Below the pieces are notes generated by a model, which saw only the letters and a list, made by a program, of their open reading frames with translations, made no database searches and had not been told where the DNA came from. Below are positions 37,215 to 49,826 of a DNA stretch of 64,000 bases, piece by piece. This stretch comes from Actinophytocola gossypii (lineage in GTDB: Bacteria > Actinomycetota > Actinomycetes > Mycobacteriales > Pseudonocardiaceae), in the NCBI RefSeq assembly GCF_025165815.1, contig NZ_JAFFZE010000014.1, forward strand, positions 248,001-312,000. The letters are read 5' to 3'. Positions within the stretch are counted from its first letter, which is position 1, and the number at the start of each line of letters is the position of its first letter. The position numbers were made by a program, and so were the translations under genes.

Positions 37215-38174
37215 ATGCTCAGCGCGCGCAAGGTCGCGTCCACCGTTCTCGTCGCGGCCGCCGCGACCGCCGTGGTGGCCGCGCCGTCCACAGCCGAGCC
37301 CCGGGCCGCCGCGCTCGGGTCGGCGCCCTACATCGACATCACGATGCCGTCGCCGTCCCTGGTGGACGTCGCGAACGCCACCGGGCACAGGACGTTCACC
37401 CTGGCGTTCGTGCTCGCCGACTCGACCGGCTGCAACCCGTCGTGGGGCGGCACGATCCCGCTCGACGACCCGCGGATCATCGGCGACATCCGTGCCCTGC
37501 AGGCCCAGGGCGGCGAGGTGGTGGTCGCCACCGGCGGAGCGGCCGGGCCGTACCTGGAGTACACGTGCGGCAGCGCGGACGCCCTCGCCGACGCCTACCG
37601 GGAGATCCTGGACACCGTCGGCACCAACCACCTCGACGTCGACGTCGAGGCCACGATCCCGCAGGACATGGTGAACACCGCGCTCAAGCGGCTCCAGGAC
37701 GAGCGCGGCACCTCGGTCAGCTACACGATGCGGGTGCTCGGCGACGACTACGGCATGGACCCGTACTCGGTGCAGGTCCTCCAGTCGGCCGCCGCGCACG
37801 GCGTCGACGTGCTGGTGAACCCGATGACGATGGAGTTCGGCAGCAGCCGCCCGAACTGGGGCGACGCGGTGATCGCGGCCGCGGAGAGCACCCTGCGGCA
37901 GATGGGTGAGATCTGGCCAGGGCTCTCGGACGCCGAGCTGCGCGCCCGGCTCGGCGTGACCCCGATGATCGGCCAGAACTACAACGGCAAGGTGTTCGAG
38001 CTCGGGCACGCCCGGCAGCTGGTCGACTGGGCACGGGCGAACCAGATCGGCATGCTCGGCTTCTGGTCCGCCGGCCGGGACAACGGGTCGTGCCCGGGCG
38101 GTGGGGTGTCCCCCACCTGCTCGGGCATCGCCCAGGGTCCGTTCGAGTTCACCTCGATCTTCGCTCAGTTCTGA
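37215..38174 (+). CDS. secreted GH18-type chitinase
   Basis: 319 residues. It has a Sec signal peptide (residues 1-27, ending APSTAEP). The catalytic DxDxE of family 18 is D141-V-D143-V-E145 in NHLDVDVEAT, on the expected fourth strand. SYTMRVL and VNPMTMEFG supply the substrate-facing strands. No binding domain is attached. It is preceded by GAGGGTGATCAACG. Two DasR-like sites predict induction by N-acetylglucosamine-type signals. Confidence 0.88.
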   Translation: MLSARKVASTVLVAAAATAVVAAPSTAEPRAAALGSAPYIDITMPSPSLVDVANATGHRTFTLAFVLADSTGCNPSWGGTIPLDDPRIIGDIRALQAQGGEVVVATGGAAGPYLEYTCGSADALADAYREILDTVGTNHLDVDVEATIPQDMVNTALKRLQDERGTSVSYTMRVLGDDYGMDPYSVQVLQSAAAHGVDVLVNPMTMEFGSSRPNWGDAVIAAAESTLRQMGEIWPGLSDAELRARLGVTPMIGQNYNGKVFELGHARQLVDWARANQIGMLGFWSAGRDNGSCPGGGVSPTCSGIAQGPFEFTSIFAQF

Positions 38175-41867: not shown

Positions 41868-44042
41868 TCAGCGCCCGGCCGGGAACAGGTACTCCTCGGC
41901 CGGCACCGTGGTCGAGTGCGCCCAGGCGTCGAAGAACGCGCTCAGGTCCTTGCCCGACACGTCCTGGGCCAACCGCTCGAACTCGGGCCAGCTCGCGTTG
42001 CCGTGCCGGTGGTCCCGCACCCAGCGCTTCAGCAGGGTGAAGAACGAGTCGTCGCCCATGGCCTTGCGCAGGGCGTGGATCATCAGCGAGCCCTTGGAGT
42101 ACAGGGCACTGTCCAGTTCCTTGCCCTTGCCCGGGTCGTACAGGCGGGTGTCCCAGAACTCGGGGTTGTCGCGGTTGGCCTCGATCTCGTGCGCGTAGAA
42201 GCCGCTGTCCAGGTCCGCGCCCTTGTACTCCTCCCACAGCTGGTTGGCGTACTGGGCGATGCACTCCTTGATGCAGGCGTTGCGCCAGTCGCTGATGGAC
42301 ACCGCGTTGCCGAACCACATGTGGCTCAGCTCGTGCGCCATGGCGGGCTCGACCATCCCGCCCGAGTAGGTGGGCCTGCTCTGCGTCTCGAACGCGGGAT
42401 GCCCGCCCCGCGCATTGACCACGATCGCGCCGGTGTTGCCGAACGGGTACGGGCCGAACAGGTCGCTGAAGTGCTCGATCATCGGCTCGAGGAGCGCCTC
42501 GGACTCCGGCAGGATGGTCGTGCCGGTGCCGTAGGCGTAGATCACCGGGAGCCCGCTGTCCAGCGTGTCGCGGCGGACGGTGAATTTGTCGACCGCCACC
42601 GTGGACAGGTACGTGGCCATCGGCTTGTCCTTGTGCCAGCGGAAGGTGCTGCGGCCGTCGGCCCTGGTCGTCCGGCCCGGGACGCCGTTGCCCATGACCT
42701 GCCAGCCGTCCGGCACCGTCGCGGTCAGCGAGAACGTGGCCTTGTCGCTGGGGTGGTCGTTGGCCGGGTACCAGGTGGTGGCCGAGTTCAGCCCGCCGTA
42801 CACGGCGAACCCGCCGCCGTCGATGGGGTGCCACGCGTCGCCGGTCGGCTCGCCGGTGTACTTCACCCGAACGGTGAACTTCTTGCCCGATCGGATCGTC
42901 TCGCTCGGCGTGAGCACCAGTTCGTGCTCGCCCTCCCGGCGGTGCTCCGCCGGATCCCCATTCACCGTCGCCCCCGCGATGGTGTAGCCCTCGAAGTCCA
43001 GGTGGAACCGGTCCAGGTCCTGGGTCGCGGTCGCGGTGACCGTGGTGTCGCCGGTGAGCCGGTCCGGGACCGCGGGGTCGTAGTCGAGCCGGACGTCGTA
43101 GTGCCCGACGTCGTACCCGGCGTTGCCGTCCTTCGGGTAGTACGGGTCGCCGATGCCGGACAGGTCGTCGGTCCTGGCCAGCTCCCACACCGCGTCGATC
43201 AGGGCGTTCGTACTCAGCGCCTCGGTGGCCGGGTCCACATTGGACAGCGTGTCGCAGGCCTGGTGGTAGCACTCGCCCAGCCCGCTGGTGAAACCGGCGA
43301 CCGGGATCCCCTGCTCGGCGAAGGACGCGTGGTCGGAGCTGGTGCCGCCGTCGACCCTGATCGTGTCCGTGCCGTGGTCGTTCAGGTACGTCTCGAACAC
43401 GTCGGTGGCCTCGGCGCCGCTGTCGGTGAGGAGGTAGAGGCTCGGGTCCTTCGTACCGGTCATGTCGAAGTTGAGGTAGGTGTCGATCGCCGCCAGCTCG
43501 GCCTCGGACCGCTGGGCCACGTGATACCTGGAGCCGACCAGCCCGAGCTCCTCCGCGCCCCACCAGGCGAAGCGCAGGTGGTCGCCGGTCCGGAGGTCCT
43601 GTTCCGCGACGGTCAGCGCAGTCGTGAGCAGGGCGGCGGCGCCGGACGCGTTGTCGTTCATGCCGGGGCCCTCCGGCACGCTGTCCAGGTGCGCGCCGAG
43701 CAGGAGCACGTTCCCCTCGTCGCCGCCCGGCCAGTCCGCGATCAGGTTGTGCCCGGTCCGGCCGTCGTGCCGGAAGGTCTCCACCCGGGTGCGGAAGCCC
43801 GCCGCGTCCAGCTCCGCCCGCACGTAGTCCATGGACTGCCGGAAGCCGGTGGTGCCGTGCGCGCGGTTGCCGCCGTTGTCGTCGGCGATCCGCTGGAAAC
43901 GCTCCAGGTGCGGCAGGACGTCCTGGTAGGTCACGGTCGGCACGTCGGCGGACGCGGGAGCGGCGACGCTCGGCGCCGCGGCCGGCACCAGGGTCAGTGC
44001 CACGGCGGCCGCCAGCAACGGTCGGATGATGGGAATACGCAT
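41868..44042 (-). CDS. secreted M28-M1 double metallopeptidase
   Basis: 724 residues from ATG 44042. Signal peptide at 1-28. Residues ~35-292 form an M28 aminopeptidase with all five zinc ligands: H118 (GAHLDSV), D130 (MNDNASG), E164-E165 (AEE), D193 (NFDMTG) and H260 (CYHQACD). Residues ~305-720 form an M1 peptidase: HELSH at 570-574, third ligand E593 (IKEC), exopeptidase Glu in FETQSRP (E552) and Tyr648 in YSKG. Both active sites look intact. The protein probably degrades extracellular peptides stepwise. The reading frame is uninterrupted across the junction, so this is not two genes. Confidence 0.92.
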   Translation of the reverse strand: MRIPIIRPLLAAAVALTLVPAAAPSVAAPASADVPTVTYQDVLPHLERFQRIADDNGGNRAHGTTGFRQSMDYVRAELDAAGFRTRVETFRHDGRTGHNLIADWPGGDEGNVLLLGAHLDSVPEGPGMNDNASGAAALLTTALTVAEQDLRTGDHLRFAWWGAEELGLVGSRYHVAQRSEAELAAIDTYLNFDMTGTKDPSLYLLTDSGAEATDVFETYLNDHGTDTIRVDGGTSSDHASFAEQGIPVAGFTSGLGECYHQACDTLSNVDPATEALSTNALIDAVWELARTDDLSGIGDPYYPKDGNAGYDVGHYDVRLDYDPAVPDRLTGDTTVTATATQDLDRFHLDFEGYTIAGATVNGDPAEHRREGEHELVLTPSETIRSGKKFTVRVKYTGEPTGDAWHPIDGGGFAVYGGLNSATTWYPANDHPSDKATFSLTATVPDGWQVMGNGVPGRTTRADGRSTFRWHKDKPMATYLSTVAVDKFTVRRDTLDSGLPVIYAYGTGTTILPESEALLEPMIEHFSDLFGPYPFGNTGAIVVNARGGHPAFETQSRPTYSGGMVEPAMAHELSHMWFGNAVSISDWRNACIKECIAQYANQLWEEYKGADLDSGFYAHEIEANRDNPEFWDTRLYDPGKGKELDSALYSKGSLMIHALRKAMGDDSFFTLLKRWVRDHRHGNASWPEFERLAQDVSGKDLSAFFDAWAHSTTVPAEEYLFPAGR

Positions 44043-44095: not shown

Positions 44096-44998
44096 TCAGT
44101 CGCCACGGCGGATCACGGCCGGGGAGTTGCCGGTGGTGCGCTTGTAGGCGCGGGAGAACGCGGCGACCGAGTCGTACCCGGTGCGGGCGGCGACCTTCGC
44201 GGGGGCGAGCCCGTCGGTCAGCAGCGTGGTGGCCAGGCGCATTCGGATGTCGGTCAGGTACGCCATCGGGGTCCGCCCCACGGTGGCGGTGAACCGCTCC
44301 GCGAACACCGACCGGGACAGCCGCGCGGCCGTCGCGAGCGTGGCCACCGACCAGGCGTACCCGGGATCCCGGTGCATCCGCGCCAGCACCGGTCCGAGGT
44401 GCGGGTCCCGCAGGGCGCCGAGGTACCCGCTGCGCGGCGCGGACCGCAGCCACGCCCGCAGCGCGTACACCACCAGCACGTCGACCAGCCGCGCGATCAC
44501 GGTCTCCGCGCCTGGTGCCGAGCTGGCCACCTCGTGGGCCAGGGTGGCCGCGAGCCCGCCGCCGGACGCCCCGGGGAGGACCAGCAGCGCGGGCAGTTGT
44601 CCGGCCAGCGGCTCGTCCGCCTGGTCGAGCACCGCCCGCCCGCACAGCAGCAGCACCGGGGTACCACCGCCGCCGTGCCGCAGCAGCGACGAACGCCGCC
44701 CGAGTTCGACGCGCGGCAACGTGTTGACGTCGTCCGCCACCCGGTCCGGCTGGTCCGCGACGCGGTGCGCACCCCCGTGCGGCACCACGGCGAGGTCGCC
44801 GGGCGTGAGCCACCGGCCCTCACCGGCACCGCCGAGCCAGCACCGCCCGGCCACCACGAAGTGGAACGACAGCCGCCCGGACTCGGGCAGTTCGATCCCC
44901 CAGGGCGCACTCAACTCGGCGCGGACGAAGTAGGTCGTCGACAGCCGCAGACCCGCCAGCACCTCGGCGAGGGGGTCGGCCGATCGAACAACCGTCAC
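44096..44998 (-). CDS. AraC-family transcriptional regulator with cupin domain
   Basis: 300 residues from GTG 44998; no strong ribosome site, and the frame is open further upstream without conservation. The N-terminal cupin-like half has HFVVAGRCWLGG and LTPGDLAVVPHGGAHRV. The C-terminal AraC double helix-turn-helix includes WSVATLATAARLSRSVFAERFTATVGRTP and VAARTGYDSVAAFSRAYKRTTGNSP. It is adjacent to the double peptidase gene but 53 bp upstream on the same strand, so it could be its regulator or cotranscribed. Confidence 0.9.
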   Translation of the reverse strand: MTVVRSADPLAEVLAGLRLSTTYFVRAELSAPWGIELPESGRLSFHFVVAGRCWLGGAGEGRWLTPGDLAVVPHGGAHRVADQPDRVADDVNTLPRVELGRRSSLLRHGGGGTPVLLLCGRAVLDQADEPLAGQLPALLVLPGASGGGLAATLAHEVASSAPGAETVIARLVDVLVVYALRAWLRSAPRSGYLGALRDPHLGPVLARMHRDPGYAWSVATLATAARLSRSVFAERFTATVGRTPMAYLTDIRMRLATTLLTDGLAPAKVAARTGYDSVAAFSRAYKRTTGNSPAVIRRGD

Positions 44999-45134
44999 GA
45001 ACAACGGATCATAGTCCGCGGCGACCTTCCGTGGGGTCGGCGAAAATCTCTTCGCCCCGGTGCGCGGTCCTGGCCCCCTCGACGGAACCGCCGCCGGCAC
45101 GGGCGGGAATTCGTGCCGACGGCGATATGGACGA

Positions 45135-45163
45135 AGTATGGAGCGGTGACGGGGACGCGTCAA
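45135..45163 (-). promoter_or_regulatory. promoter of the araC-type gene
   Basis: On the minus strand TTGACG (45158-45163), 17-bp spacer and CATACT (45135-45140). A start near 45127 would leave a leader of about 130 nt before the GTG at 44998. Confidence 0.55.
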
Positions 45164-45304: not shown

Positions 45305-46894
45305 TCAGTACTGCTGCCACTCGTCGGTCGACAGCCGCAGCACCCTCGGGTCGTCCAATGTGGACGGAACACCCTCGCCGGTCGGCCGGCGGTCGGCCGG
45401 GAACACCTGGGCGCTCGCCAGGACGTCCGCGTCGAGGAAGCGCAGCGGCTCCGGCGGGTCCAGCCGCGGGGTCGGCGCCTCGCCCTCCTGCGCCAGCACG
45501 AAACCCCAGTCACCGAACGTCGGCACGTTGACGTGGTACGGAGTGACGGCAAGGCCGGCCGCGCGCATCGACGCCAGGACGCAGTCGAACGTCCTCGGCG
45601 CGAAGTACGGCGACCCGGCCTGCACCACCATCCGGCCGCCCGGTGCCAGCGCGCGCCGCGCGAGTAGGTAGAACTCGTGGGAGTACAGCTTCGCCGTCGC
45701 CGTCGAGTCGGGATCCGGCATGTCGACGATCACCGCGTCGAAGCGCGCGGAGTTGTCGCGCAGCCAGGCGAACGCGTCGTCGGCGACCACGCGCACCCTC
45801 GGGTCGGCGAGCGAGTCCTCGTTCAGCGCCCGCAGCGTCGGGTTCTGCCGCGCCAGCCGGAGCACGGCCGGGTCGAGCTCGACCTCGACGACCTCCCGCA
45901 CGTCGGGATAGCGCAGCACCTCGCGTAGCGCCAGGCCGTCCCCACCGCCGAGCACGAGCACCCGGTCGCGCTTCCCGGCGAGCACCGGGTGCGCCAGCGC
46001 CTCGTGGTAGCGGTACTCGTCGATCGAGGAGAACTGCAGGTCGCCGTTGAGGAAGAGCCGGGTGTCGGGCGCTCCGCCGGCCACCGGCGACGACTCGGTG
46101 ACCACGATCTCCTGGTACGACGTGGTCTCCTGGTACACCACCGGGTCCCGGTACAGCACGTCGCGGGAGTAGCGCAGGAACGTGTCGCTACTGGCGAAGG
46201 CCACTCCCAGCACCGCCAGCACGGCCAGCGTCCCGGCGGCCACCGCGAGCCGGCGTCGCCGCGTCACCGTTCTGGCGAACAGGAACAGCACCACGCACGC
46301 ACCGGCGACCGCGTTGACCATGCCGACCAGCAGCGCTCCCCTGGTCTGCCCGAGCAGCGGCAGCAGCAGGAACGGGAACGCCAGTCCGCCGACGAGCGCG
46401 CCGACGTAGTCCGCGGCGAACAGGTCCGCGGTGGCCGAACCCGCGTCCTGGCGGCGGATCCGCTGCAGCAGCGTCATCAGCAGCGGGATCTCCGCACCGA
46501 TGAGCCCGCCGACGATCAGCGAGATCGCGATCAGCGCCGGCCAGTACAGGTCGAGCCAGGTGAACGCGGCGTGCAGGCCGAGCACCGACAGCCCGCCGAC
46601 CAGCGCGAGCACCGCCTCGATCACCGCGAAGCTGGCCAACGCCCTGCGCTGCAACGGTTTCGCGGCCAGCGAGCCGATGCCCATGGCGAACACCATGGTG
46701 GCCAGCACCACCGAGGCCTGGGTGATCGAGTCGCCGAGCAGGTACGAGCCCTGCGCGACCAGCGCCAGCTCGTAGACCAGGCCGCACGCCGCGCACGCGA
46801 ACGTGGCGAACAGCAGGCCGGCCCGCATCAGCCTGGTCCGCCGGCTCTGGCGTACCGGAGCGTCGGTGTCGACCGGGTTGTCGACGACGGTCAT
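45305..46894 (-). CDS. membrane-embedded spermidine-synthase-like protein
   Basis: 529 residues. Residues ~20-235 contain about seven membrane segments (LLFATFACAACGLVYELALVAQGSYLLGD onward). Residues ~260-500 form a polyamine aminopropyltransferase fold: YQEIVVTE, LFLNGDLQFSSIDEYRYHEAL, VLVLGGGDGLALREVL for decarboxylated-SAM binding, and DDAFAWL and DMPDPDS for the catalytic Asp. No SAM decarboxylase is nearby. It is last in a six-gene coupled operon. The real product could be a polyamine or another alkylated amine at the membrane. Confidence 0.88.
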   Translation of the reverse strand: MTVVDNPVDTDAPVRQSRRTRLMRAGLLFATFACAACGLVYELALVAQGSYLLGDSITQASVVLATMVFAMGIGSLAAKPLQRRALASFAVIEAVLALVGGLSVLGLHAAFTWLDLYWPALIAISLIVGGLIGAEIPLLMTLLQRIRRQDAGSATADLFAADYVGALVGGLAFPFLLLPLLGQTRGALLVGMVNAVAGACVVLFLFARTVTRRRRLAVAAGTLAVLAVLGVAFASSDTFLRYSRDVLYRDPVVYQETTSYQEIVVTESSPVAGGAPDTRLFLNGDLQFSSIDEYRYHEALAHPVLAGKRDRVLVLGGGDGLALREVLRYPDVREVVEVELDPAVLRLARQNPTLRALNEDSLADPRVRVVADDAFAWLRDNSARFDAVIVDMPDPDSTATAKLYSHEFYLLARRALAPGGRMVVQAGSPYFAPRTFDCVLASMRAAGLAVTPYHVNVPTFGDWGFVLAQEGEAPTPRLDPPEPLRFLDADVLASAQVFPADRRPTGEGVPSTLDDPRVLRLSTDEWQQY

Positions 46895-46902
46895 GTCCTC
46901 GC

Positions 46903-47328
46903 TCAGAAGATGGCCACGGCCACGATCGCCGAGACCGACAGGTGCGACGCGCCGCTCACGTAGACCGCCGGGTGGGCCTGCTCCTCCATCAGCAGCGCAC
47001 CGAGCTTGCCCGGCGTCACCGCGTCGATGACCACGAAGGACAGTCCCATGAGGACGAGCCCGAGCAGGCCGTACGCCAGCGTGGACAGGATGCCCTGGGC
47101 CCAGTCGCCGTGGCTGGCCGCGATGGCCGTGGCGACGATGATGCCGACGCCGATGAGGTTGCTGGCCAGCAGGATGGCGGCGTTGCGGTGCCGCTGCACC
47201 CAGATCTGCTCGCGCAGGTTACCCGGGGTGAGCACGTCGACCAGCACGAAGCCGACCGCCATCAGCAGCAGGCCGGCGAGCCCGTAGGTGGCGGCGATGC
47301 CGACCTCGGAGAAGACATCGGACAGCAT
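46903..47328 (-). CDS. DUF350 membrane protein
   Basis: 141 residues with four membrane segments and an internal two-fold repeat: YGLAGLLLMAVGFVLVDVLTPGNLREQI near 15-42 and YGLLGLVLMGLSFVVIDAVTPGKLGALL near 86-113. This duplicated pattern is the DUF350 signature. The family is of unknown activity. It lies 8 bases upstream of the polyamine-synthase-like gene in the same operon. Confidence 0.85.
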   Translation of the reverse strand: MLSDVFSEVGIAATYGLAGLLLMAVGFVLVDVLTPGNLREQIWVQRHRNAAILLASNLIGVGIIVATAIAASHGDWAQGILSTLAYGLLGLVLMGLSFVVIDAVTPGKLGALLMEEQAHPAVYVSGASHLSVSAIVAVAIF

Positions 47329-47342
47329 GGGTGGGTGGCTCC

Positions 47343-48149
47343 TTATTCCTCTGGCCTGGTCTTGTTCTGGTTCGGTGTGCCCGGTTCAGGCTGGTCGGGC
47401 GGCCTGGGTCGGACATCGCCCCTGGCGGTGTTCGGGTCGTACCACTCCGGCGGCACGTACTCCGGCGGCGGAGCGGTCCGCACCGGCCGGCTGCCCTGAC
47501 CGCGCGTCCGGAACGCCCAGATGGCGAACACCACGCCGGCGACCAGCAGCACCGCGCCGAACAGGAAGGCCCCGCCGGACTGGCGGAGGAAGTCCGAGGT
47601 GGGTGAGTCGGTCGGCTCGGCGTTGTCGGCCCGCGCCTCCGACGGCGGCGCCGGGCTCGCCTCGATCGGGTCGGCCAGGCCGGCCTCGGCGGCCAGCAGC
47701 GGCAGCGCGGAGACCGCCTTGTAGACCTCGAGCCCCACGTTGTCGCCGGCCATACCCTCGGCGCTGATGATCTCCAGGCTGTCCAGGTCGCTGGTCGTCG
47801 GGCCGCTGCCCGAGCTGACCACCTGGTAGGAGGCCGAGTCCTCGATCTCGGAGGACTCGCTGGTCCACCGGATCGACGCCTGGAACTCCACGGTGGCGTC
47901 GCAGTCCCCGGTGCCGTCGTCGACGTCGGTGTCGGCGCCGAAGTTCGAGCCGACACTCTCCTGCTGACTGCCCACGTTGTCCACGTCGACGTCCCAGCCG
48001 TAGCAGACGCCCTGCTCCTGGTAGGCGTCCTCGAGCTTCTGGGCCAGGTCGTCGGCGTCGGACGGTTCGAAGATCACCTGGGCGGACGCGGTGCCCGGCG
48101 CGGCGGCGAGCAGCAGCGCGGCGGCGAGGGTGACGAGCGCGCGCCTCAC
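47343..48149 (-). CDS. secreted, C-terminally membrane-anchored protein of the DUF350 operon
   Basis: 268 residues. Signal peptide 1-23 (LVTLAAALLLAAAPGTASAQ); an extracellular domain ~24-180 rich in Asp/Ser with a pair of Cys (CYGW, GDCDA); one membrane segment near 195-217 (GGAFLFGAVLLVAGVVFAIWAF); then a cytosolic Pro/Asp-rich tail. No catalytic motif is recognised. It overlaps the DUF4247 gene by 4 bp. Confidence 0.8.
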   Translation of the reverse strand: MRRALVTLAAALLLAAAPGTASAQVIFEPSDADDLAQKLEDAYQEQGVCYGWDVDVDNVGSQQESVGSNFGADTDVDDGTGDCDATVEFQASIRWTSESSEIEDSASYQVVSSGSGPTTSDLDSLEIISAEGMAGDNVGLEVYKAVSALPLLAAEAGLADPIEASPAPPSEARADNAEPTDSPTSDFLRQSGGAFLFGAVLLVAGVVFAIWAFRTRGQGSRPVRTAPPPEYVPPEWYDPNTARGDVRPRPPDQPEPGTPNQNKTRPEE

Positions 48150-48565
48150 TTGCCCGCCCCCGGGCCGCCGCCGCGGATCCCCTCGCCGTATCCGCTGCCG
48201 GTGCCCCAGAACCCGACCACGAACGGGTACCAGTGCGCGTAGCCGCGCCGCTCGTCGTCGATGTAGATGCGGGAGCCGCCGTCGCTCGCGGTGACCGCGA
48301 CGATGTCGTCGGAGTAGCGCAGGAAGTAGCCCTTCGGGTCGACCTGCACGTCGGCCGGCGACACCGCCGAGCGGATCGACTCGTAGACCTTGGTCGGCTT
48401 CTGGTTCGAGGTGTACACGATCGAGTCACCGTCGGCGGAGACGCGCCGGTAGTTGTCCGCCAGGTGCCCACGGATGCCGCTGCCGCCGAGCAGTGCCACC
48501 AGCAGCACGATCAGCCCGACGCCGCCGAGCCCGCCGGCGATGAACAGCTTCGTTCTGGTCCTCAT
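48146..48565 (-). CDS. DUF4247 membrane-anchored protein
   Basis: 139 residues with one N-terminal anchor (LFIAGGLGGVGLIVLLVALLG) and an outer domain with RRVSADGDSIVYTSNQKP and YFLRYSDDIVAVTASDGGSRIYID, the pattern of DUF4247. A Gly-rich end (GYGEGIRGGGPGAG) closes it. Function unknown. It overlaps both neighbours by 4 bp. Confidence 0.8.
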   Translation of the reverse strand: MRTRTKLFIAGGLGGVGLIVLLVALLGGSGIRGHLADNYRRVSADGDSIVYTSNQKPTKVYESIRSAVSPADVQVDPKGYFLRYSDDIVAVTASDGGSRIYIDDERRGYAHWYPFVVGFWGTGSGYGEGIRGGGPGAGK

Positions 48566-49053
48566 ACCGGTGCCACCTCACTCAGCGTCTCCACCAGCTC
48601 ACCGGCCTGTGGGTAGGCGTGCCAGGTCCGCCAGGCGGCGCCGGTCGCGGTCGGCCAGGCACGCAGGGCGGTGACCGCGAGCGGTGAGCCGGGGAACTCG
48701 CCGACCAGCGCGTGCGGGTCGGCCTCGCAGTCCCGGACGATGTCGGCGACCCGGGCGGCCAGCGCGTCGGGGTCGAGCCGGTGGCAGCGGGCCTCGAACG
48801 TGGTGCGCAGCCCGCCGGCGACGACTTCCTCCCGCTCGGGCAGGGCGCCGGTCCGGTCGGGCAGGCAGGCCACGGTCTCCGACCAGTCGCCCACCACGAC
48901 CTGGTGCGAGGCGCCGAGCACCCGCAGTTCGAGGTCGATGCCGGGCAGGCTCACCCGATGGGTGCCGAGCGCGGGTAACGGACGCAGGCCGTAGGCGAGG
49001 CTGAGGTCCGCGGCCCGGGAGTCGGCGAACCGGGTGGACAGGCGTGCCCTCAC
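48562..49053 (-). CDS. DUF2617 protein
   Basis: 163 residues, cytosolic, no membrane segment. RVLGASHQVVVGDWSETVACL and FEARCHRLDPDALAARV agree with the DUF2617 family as I remember it. No catalytic motif. It is the second gene of the operon, coupled by 4-bp overlaps on each side. Confidence 0.78.
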   Translation of the reverse strand: MRARLSTRFADSRAADLSLAYGLRPLPALGTHRVSLPGIDLELRVLGASHQVVVGDWSETVACLPDRTGALPEREEVVAGGLRTTFEARCHRLDPDALAARVADIVRDCEADPHALVGEFPGSPLAVTALRAWPTATGAAWRTWHAYPQAGELVETLSEVAPV

Positions 49054-49658
49054 GTGCGATCACTGCCCGCCGGGTAGACGCGCAGGGCGGGCAGCGGGAC
49101 CTCCTCGCCGAGACCGGCCTCCCACTTGCCGCCGTCGAAGCGTTCGAAGCTCAGCGCCTTGCCGTTCGGGCCCTCGTAGTCGACGTACTCGACGGTCCCG
49201 CGCTCGGCGACGGTGGTGGTTCCCTCGGAGGTGTACTTGGCGGTGCCGTCCTCGTCGCGGGTGTAGGTGACGCCGCCGACCTCCATGGTCTTGCCGCCGG
49301 GAGCGGTGGCGAGGTCGGTCTCGCGCCAGAAGTAGACCTCGAGGTCGGGGTCCTCCTCGACGGACACCCAGAGCCGGTCGCCCCGCGCGTCGTCGAGGAA
49401 GTGCTCCGACCAGGAGTACCCACCCTCGGTGATCCGCAACGACCCGCGCACGAAGTACAGCTGGTCGCCGTAGTCGATCATGTCGCCGGCCCGGACCGTG
49501 CGGACGTCGGTGACGCCCTGGTGGTCGGCCAACGGGTCGACGGGCTTGCTCGGCTGTTCCGGCGCGACGGGCTTGCGGTTGGCGCGGGAGCGCATCCACA
49601 GCACCACCCCGACCCCGACGAGCGCGAGCAGGACGAGCACAAGCAGGAGCTCGGTCAC
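49050..49658 (-). CDS. DUF4178 membrane-anchored protein, first gene of the operon
   Basis: 202 residues from GTG 49658. An N-terminal membrane anchor (LLLVLVLLALVGVGVVLWM) is followed by a beta-rich domain with VRAGDMIDYGDQLYFVRGSLRITEGGYSWSEHFLDD, typical DUF4178. A second beta unit has GGVTYTRDEDGTAKYTSEG. The function is unknown; these proteins recur in membrane-stress-like neighbourhoods. The 168-bp gap to mnmA (49659-49826) must hold the operon promoter. Confidence 0.82.
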   Translation of the reverse strand: MTELLLVLVLLALVGVGVVLWMRSRANRKPVAPEQPSKPVDPLADHQGVTDVRTVRAGDMIDYGDQLYFVRGSLRITEGGYSWSEHFLDDARGDRLWVSVEEDPDLEVYFWRETDLATAPGGKTMEVGGVTYTRDEDGTAKYTSEGTTTVAERGTVEYVDYEGPNGKALSFERFDGGKWEAGLGEEVPLPALRVYPAGSDRT

Positions 49659-49826
49659 GGCCGGTCCCTCCCCAATCCAACGGCGTTGCCGGCGAGCATA
49701 GTCGTCACCCCGATCACCCGGTCGGTCGATTGACGCCGACCGTTGTGAGTTCGATATCCGAACCTTCCGCACCCGAACTGCCACCGCACACCGAGATCCG
49801 TTCGACCACGGTCGGCTGACCAACGA

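Follow-up and report, generated by a model that had tools for sequence, protein, structure and literature searches.

A rare fusion of M28 and M1 peptidase domains in Actinophytocola gossypii and Crossiella, most simply derived from a tandem gene pair

The enzymes closest to the two halves of the protein described here are known as separate chains. SGAP, an M28A aminopeptidase of Streptomyces griseus (PDB 1cp7), has Tyr246 and Glu131 as its catalytic residues and is reported to free leucine and methionine from test substrates (PMC3426542). A surface M28 aminopeptidase of Pseudomonas aeruginosa is reported in the same source to support growth on arginine peptides as sole nitrogen source (PMC3426542). 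More secreted peptidases are reported for soil and aquatic Actinobacteria, including Pseudonocardiaceae and Streptomycetaceae, than for animal-associated families (PMC6411800). Within the M1 family, a two-domain enzyme from Deinococcus (PDB 6a8z, 6iff) comprises N-terminal and catalytic parts only, without a C-terminal cap domain. We take the source of 6a8z to be Deinococcus radiodurans.

Here we describe a protein that joins the two kinds of enzyme, encoded in a 64,000-nucleotide stretch of the Actinophytocola gossypii genome (the window; Table 1). The first-pass annotation, which gave no strand, had proposed a single 724-residue frame with complete M28 and M1 domains. The gene lies on the minus strand and has no internal stop, and the Pfam matches agree with this proposal: Peptidase_M28 at residues 99-278 (E = 3.3e-44), Peptidase_M1_N at 314-479 (1.6e-9) and Peptidase_M1 at 562-707 (7.7e-20), each exceeding its curated cut-off. 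The residues named for the two active sites, comprising the six M28 positions in Table 1, HELSH 570-574, E593, Y648 and FETQ 551-554, were likewise confirmed at their positions and align with 1cp7 and 6a8z. Read by eye, the N-terminus is hydrophobic and signal-peptide-like, without a lipobox cysteine, and four fused orthologs from Crossiella also start with a hydrophobic, Ala-rich segment; from this signal-peptide-like start, the window protein is probably secreted.

Table 1. Features of the fusion locus in window coordinates
Feature	Coordinates	Strand	Basis or position
M28-M1 fusion gene, 724 aa plus stop	41868..44042	-	ORF, Pfam, structure-relative alignment
Signal-peptide-like N-terminus, residues 1-34	43941..44042	-	Read by eye; Crossiella fusions similar
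M28 (SGAP-like) domain, residues 35-289; H118, D130, E164, E165, D193, H260	43176..43940	-	Pfam, alignment
Junction linker, residues 290-295	43158..43175	-	Compared with Crossiella fusions and tandem junctions
Two-domain M1 peptidase, residues 296-724	41871..43157	-	Pfam, alignment
M1 zinc motif HELSH-x18-E, residues 570-593	42264..42335	-	Residue check, alignment
AraC-type regulator with Cupin_6 domain	44096..45163	-	Co-directional, 53 bp upstream of fusion gene

The M28 domain scores 151.4 bits against a Pfam cut-off of 21.3, carries the residue set of the family (His, Asp, Glu-Glu, Asp, His), and aligns with SGAP in two blocks (E = 1.1e-65). All six zinc and catalytic positions of SGAP are kept, as is the equivalent of Tyr246 (Y259). 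Unlike SGAP, however, the domain is joined to an M1 peptidase and lacks a loop of approximately 20 residues before the last zinc-site His. The absence of this loop is characteristic of M28 domains with an M1 partner, whether fused or encoded by a tandem pair of adjacent genes: it is missing from 20/20 fused and tandem alignment rows but from only 1/70 lone M28 rows, and the loop length is identical in 32/32 fused and tandem loci. The two groups also differ at alignment columns 36, 275 and 279, whose Asp residues we take to be the calcium ligands of SGAP. Among lone rows, Asp occupies column 36 in 43 of 44 (a further 26 being gapped), column 275 in 54/70 and column 279 in 67/70, whereas fused and tandem rows have none at the first two columns and 4/20 at the third. 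Judged by these putative Asp ligands, the calcium site, a feature of SGAP rather than of M28 enzymes as a whole, was not found in the window protein. The Tyr246 equivalent is Tyr in 70/70 lone and 5/5 fused rows, but only in 3/27 tandem rows. Judged on these sequence characters, the M28 partner is a subfamily distinct from the lone SGAP-like enzymes, and its changes may alter substrate choice or make space for M1.

The M1 part (71.9 bits against a Pfam cut-off of 27.7) contains H570, E571, H574, E593, E552 and Y648, which presumably provide the zinc motif, the GAMEN-like Glu (E552) and the catalytic Tyr. Residues 296-714 align with residues 39-464 of the 474-residue Deinococcus chain (140.9 bits, E = 4.3e-40 for 6a8z), to which they are only distantly similar in sequence. 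The protein stops 17 residues past the Pfam M1 match, and therefore has no C-terminal domain; this fits the two-domain form, and the canonical four-domain M1 organization with its C-terminal helical domain was not found in the window protein. Besides its junction to M28, the M1 part differs from the Deinococcus enzyme around the zinc Glu, where a C-x3-C pair (C590, C594) replaces W...G. The same pair is common in lone actinobacterial M1 rows, many of which possess it. What is new here is thus the joining in one chain of a known kind of M28 enzyme and a known kind of two-domain M1 enzyme.

A search of 390 genomes from the window's family returned 12 matching genomes at E = 1e-150 or better, five of them with full-length fusions, comprising the window protein and the four Crossiella orthologs; an earlier set of 249 genomes gave the identical five. 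The fusion was found in 4/5 Crossiella genomes and in only 1/6 genomes of the window's own genus, and both domains exceed the Pfam cut-offs in all five proteins. Each Crossiella ortholog occupies a single frame, and the presence of the fused frame in four other genomes argues against an assembly or frameshift artefact. None of 297 Streptomycetaceae genomes contains the fusion, although 21 carry a close M1, and samples of 394 genomes from the class and 396 from the phylum returned it only from the window's own genome; these wide searches, conducted within Actinomycetota, evaluated the top two to four candidates from each genome. A plasmid collection contained 136 matching records, two of which cover at least 80% of the query, both with two annotated genes. 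Among the literature matches listed, no title or abstract opening describes an M28-M1 fusion. The expectation that this pairing is unusual therefore held, since neither the Actinomycetota genomes, the plasmid records, nor those titles and abstract openings reveal a common, named architecture. Across the Actinomycetota genomes searched, the fusion is genuine, though rare.

The same two proteins, in the same order and on the same strand, are encoded by separate adjacent genes at 27 distinct loci in Streptomycetaceae (Streptomyces, Kitasatospora and one further genus label) and Saccharopolyspora. None of these loci duplicates another, L012 and L195 being the most similar at 97%; counts omit loci that repeat a named contig, judged by equal length, and L203, an M1 with a partial M28 match, was counted as neither tandem nor fused. 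RefSeq-derived annotation labels the tandem pair 'M20/M25/M40 family metallo-hydrolase' and 'M1 family metallopeptidase'. With start codons guessed and ATG preferred, the first candidate M1 start lies -8 to 60 nt from the M28 stop at 26/27 loci; at the remaining one, no M1 start was called. The tandem pairs belong to the same larger clade as the fusion, but differ in having two genes, two signal-peptide-like starts, and mostly a residue other than Tyr at the position of Y259. At each of the 12 tandem loci whose junction was read, the M1 protein begins with a signal-peptide-like segment of its own. Where these loci have a stop, a spacer and a second signal peptide, the fused proteins have a linker of four residues (the four Crossiella copies) or six (the window), which runs from where M28 ends to GDPYYP, a conserved sequence of the mature M1.

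A tree was built for each domain by a quick method with SH-aLRT support and no bootstrap; besides the five fused copies, the trees contain 15 tandem rows and 69 or 70 lone ones. The fused copies form a single clade in both (support 100 in the M1 tree, 94 in the M28 tree). For M28, a support of 99 separates the fused and tandem rows from every one of the 70 lone rows. The matching M1 group (98) additionally takes in two lone M1 rows, which are the nearest neighbors of the fused M1 clade (94). The step from tandem to fused is consequently clear-cut in the M28 tree but less so in the M1 tree. The fusion thus shows a Rosetta-stone pattern, with separate adjacent relatives that group with it domain by domain, those two lone M1 rows included. 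As the fused copies form one clade within a group that holds the tandem pairs, a single fusion of a tandem pair appears to be the simplest history, and loss of M28 in the two lone-M1 lineages would account for the remaining tree pattern. The protein is most simply a fused gene pair, and so less mysterious than first proposed. Within the fused clade, both trees pair the window copy with a single copy from Crossiella (support 89 in each); this pairing, together with the absence of the gene from the other five genomes of the window's genus, makes lateral transfer possible.

Both active sites have been retained throughout. The catalytic residues of M28 and M1 are intact in 32/32 loci (5/5 fused, 27/27 tandem), with no sign of a dead domain. 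Close fused copies are demonstrably under selection against amino-acid change, with a dN/dS of 0.25 in each domain of the closest pair. The other fused pairs give 0.29-0.72, and the more distant ones 0.48-0.72, values that say little because the genes are GC-rich and diverged, making the estimate unreliable. The first-pass annotation had also suggested that one domain might process or regulate the other, for which nothing was found in support. A role as chaperone, propeptide or self-trimmer would suit the very short linker, and the M28 subfamily's lack of the 20-residue loop and the putative calcium Asp columns could reflect a new contact surface; however, tandem M1 proteins with their own signal-peptide-like starts should fold alone, and neither site is degenerate at any of the 32 loci. 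We therefore regard control of one domain by the other as very improbable.

The fusion gene is dispensable, which counts against a vital role. A close Crossiella relative (G108, taken as SN42), with DNA identity of 94-97% in the five best-matching blocks and 80% in a sixth, has lost it through a deletion of approximately 2.4 kb that also cut off the end of the kinase gene upstream; what remains of the fusion is a C-terminal stub of M1. At this locus (L163, near 8390) the shortened sensor-kinase frame stays open and runs into the stub. Seven loci carry a related M1 without an adjacent intact M28, and two of these supply the lone M1 rows nearest to the fused clade. Two tandem M1 genes, 48-49% and 56-57% identical to the window M1, occur without an adjacent M28 at L217 and L218 (G957, G919). 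An M1 paralog in the Crossiella group (L148-L151; G108, G055, G086, G125) lacks the GAMEN-type Glu and has RTLAA in place of HExxH, and is likely inactive.

The loss in one Crossiella, the unfused pairs at 27 loci, and the restriction of fused copies to one clade in few genomes are all compatible with a neutral fusion, in which independent secreted peptidases encoded side by side were fused by chance, the joined form adds nothing, and proteolysis of the linker may free the parts. We consider this rather unlikely, since the fusion is retained, with a short similar linker and no frameshift, in divergent copies whose M1 domains are 66-70% identical to that of the window.

The genomic context of the relatives suggests regulated use. 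A family of sensor kinases and OmpR-type regulators adjoins 4/4 intact Crossiella fusions and 10/27 tandem pairs, giving 14/31 fused or tandem loci outside the window against 0/67 lone-M28 controls (Fisher's test, 8e-9, ignoring kinship among loci). Flanks were at most 5 kb for the controls, with a few much shorter, and 2.5-8 kb or more for the tandem loci. The linkage was seen at 0/7 loci where a related M1 lacks a full M28 partner. Three relative orientations occur: in Crossiella, a HAMP sensor kinase and the OmpR-type response regulator sit immediately upstream of the fusion and point in its direction; in Kitasatospora, a kinase of the same family and the regulator are oriented divergently to the M28-M1 pair; and at two Streptomyces loci the two genes are found on the side of M1. 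Moreover, a MacB/FtsX permease, an ABC ATPase or a PG_binding_1 adaptor is found near 5/31 loci. These associations raise a more specific role, which we keep open: a dedicated two-component system might induce the enzyme pair, which would act alongside a MacB-like ABC transporter and a peptidoglycan-binding adaptor against particular external peptides, from competitors or cell walls, rather than on general nutrients. This seems quite unlikely, given that 17/27 tandem loci and the window locus lack the linkage, 8/10 tandem loci with the linkage come under a single genus label, and some controls are short-flanked. No two-component system, MacB-like ABC parts or peptidoglycan-binding adaptor was found near the window gene, and the homologous kinase and regulator of this genome are unlinked, at C11. 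More speculative still is a dedicated two-active-site complex, covalent here and heterodimeric in the tandem species, which would dock at the lost loop and putative calcium clamp and would destroy or harvest specific external peptides as part of a peptide-sensing envelope module of sensor kinase, regulator, MacB-like transporter and peptidoglycan-binding adaptor.

In the window, the AraC-type gene is a possible regulator of the fusion. It has no recurrent counterpart among the neighbors compared at other loci, and a promoter and terminator scan yielded one promoter-like site, at this gene, and no terminator-like site. Elsewhere in the window, a 319-residue protein with a signal-peptide-like start (37215-38174, plus strand) has no Pfam match at E = 0.1; by eye we take it to be chitinase-like. 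On the Streptomyces sp. NBC_01237 plasmid, a gene annotated 'enediyne antibiotic chromoprotein' (L195, 1902-2342) lies approximately 5.5 kb from the tandem M28-M1 pair; the sequence of L012, the only related locus sharing this neighborhood, is too short to cover the corresponding position. The window also carries a minus-strand row (45308-49784) encoding a spermine-synthase-domain protein, DUF350, a protein without a Pfam match, DUF4247, DUF2617 and DUF4178, which resembles operon variants reported around phage-shock-protein partners (PMC11237479).

Overall, we consider it probable, on the sequence comparisons above, that the protein is a secreted two-headed zinc aminopeptidase for external peptides, most simply derived from one in-frame fusion of neighboring secreted enzymes. 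Its ancestors would have been two separately secreted enzymes encoded by adjacent genes, an M28 aminopeptidase of the SGAP type and a compact M1 aminopeptidase of two domains. On fusing, the pair would have lost the stop codon of M28, the short spacer and the signal peptide of M1, leaving a linker of 4-6 residues. Outside the cell, the M28 head may remove one class of N-terminal residue, by analogy with SGAP a large hydrophobic one, and the M1 head may remove residues that stall it. Mixed peptides would thereby be shortened stepwise to amino acids for uptake, and the fusion would fix a 1:1 ratio of the heads and hold the two sites close. The two-headed reading draws support from the closest solved relatives, an aminopeptidase for the M28 part (1cp7) and a two-domain M1 for the other (6a8z), although we infer the activity of both heads, their complementary specificity and any benefit of tethering. 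The earlier proposal that joined exopeptidases sequentially trim peptides of different sequence gains indirect support from the tandem pairs, the fused clade and the intact sites. Against the two-headed reading, tethering may be neutral, seven M1 loci lack an adjacent intact M28, and five of the six genomes of the window's genus lack the gene.

Secreted aminopeptidases are commonly regarded as nutrient enzymes that can stand in for one another. The fused M28/M1 pair, with both sites kept, provides a testable case of cooperation between exopeptidases of unrelated clans, and the two-component system linked to it in relatives offers a handle on what induces these enzymes. A natural two-headed aminopeptidase could also serve in the production of protein hydrolysates. 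If the parts merely work side by side, the protein would be a modest but clean example of gene-pair fusion. As it stands, it is a rare natural fusion of enzymes that relatives make from neighboring genes, which suggests that the two work together.
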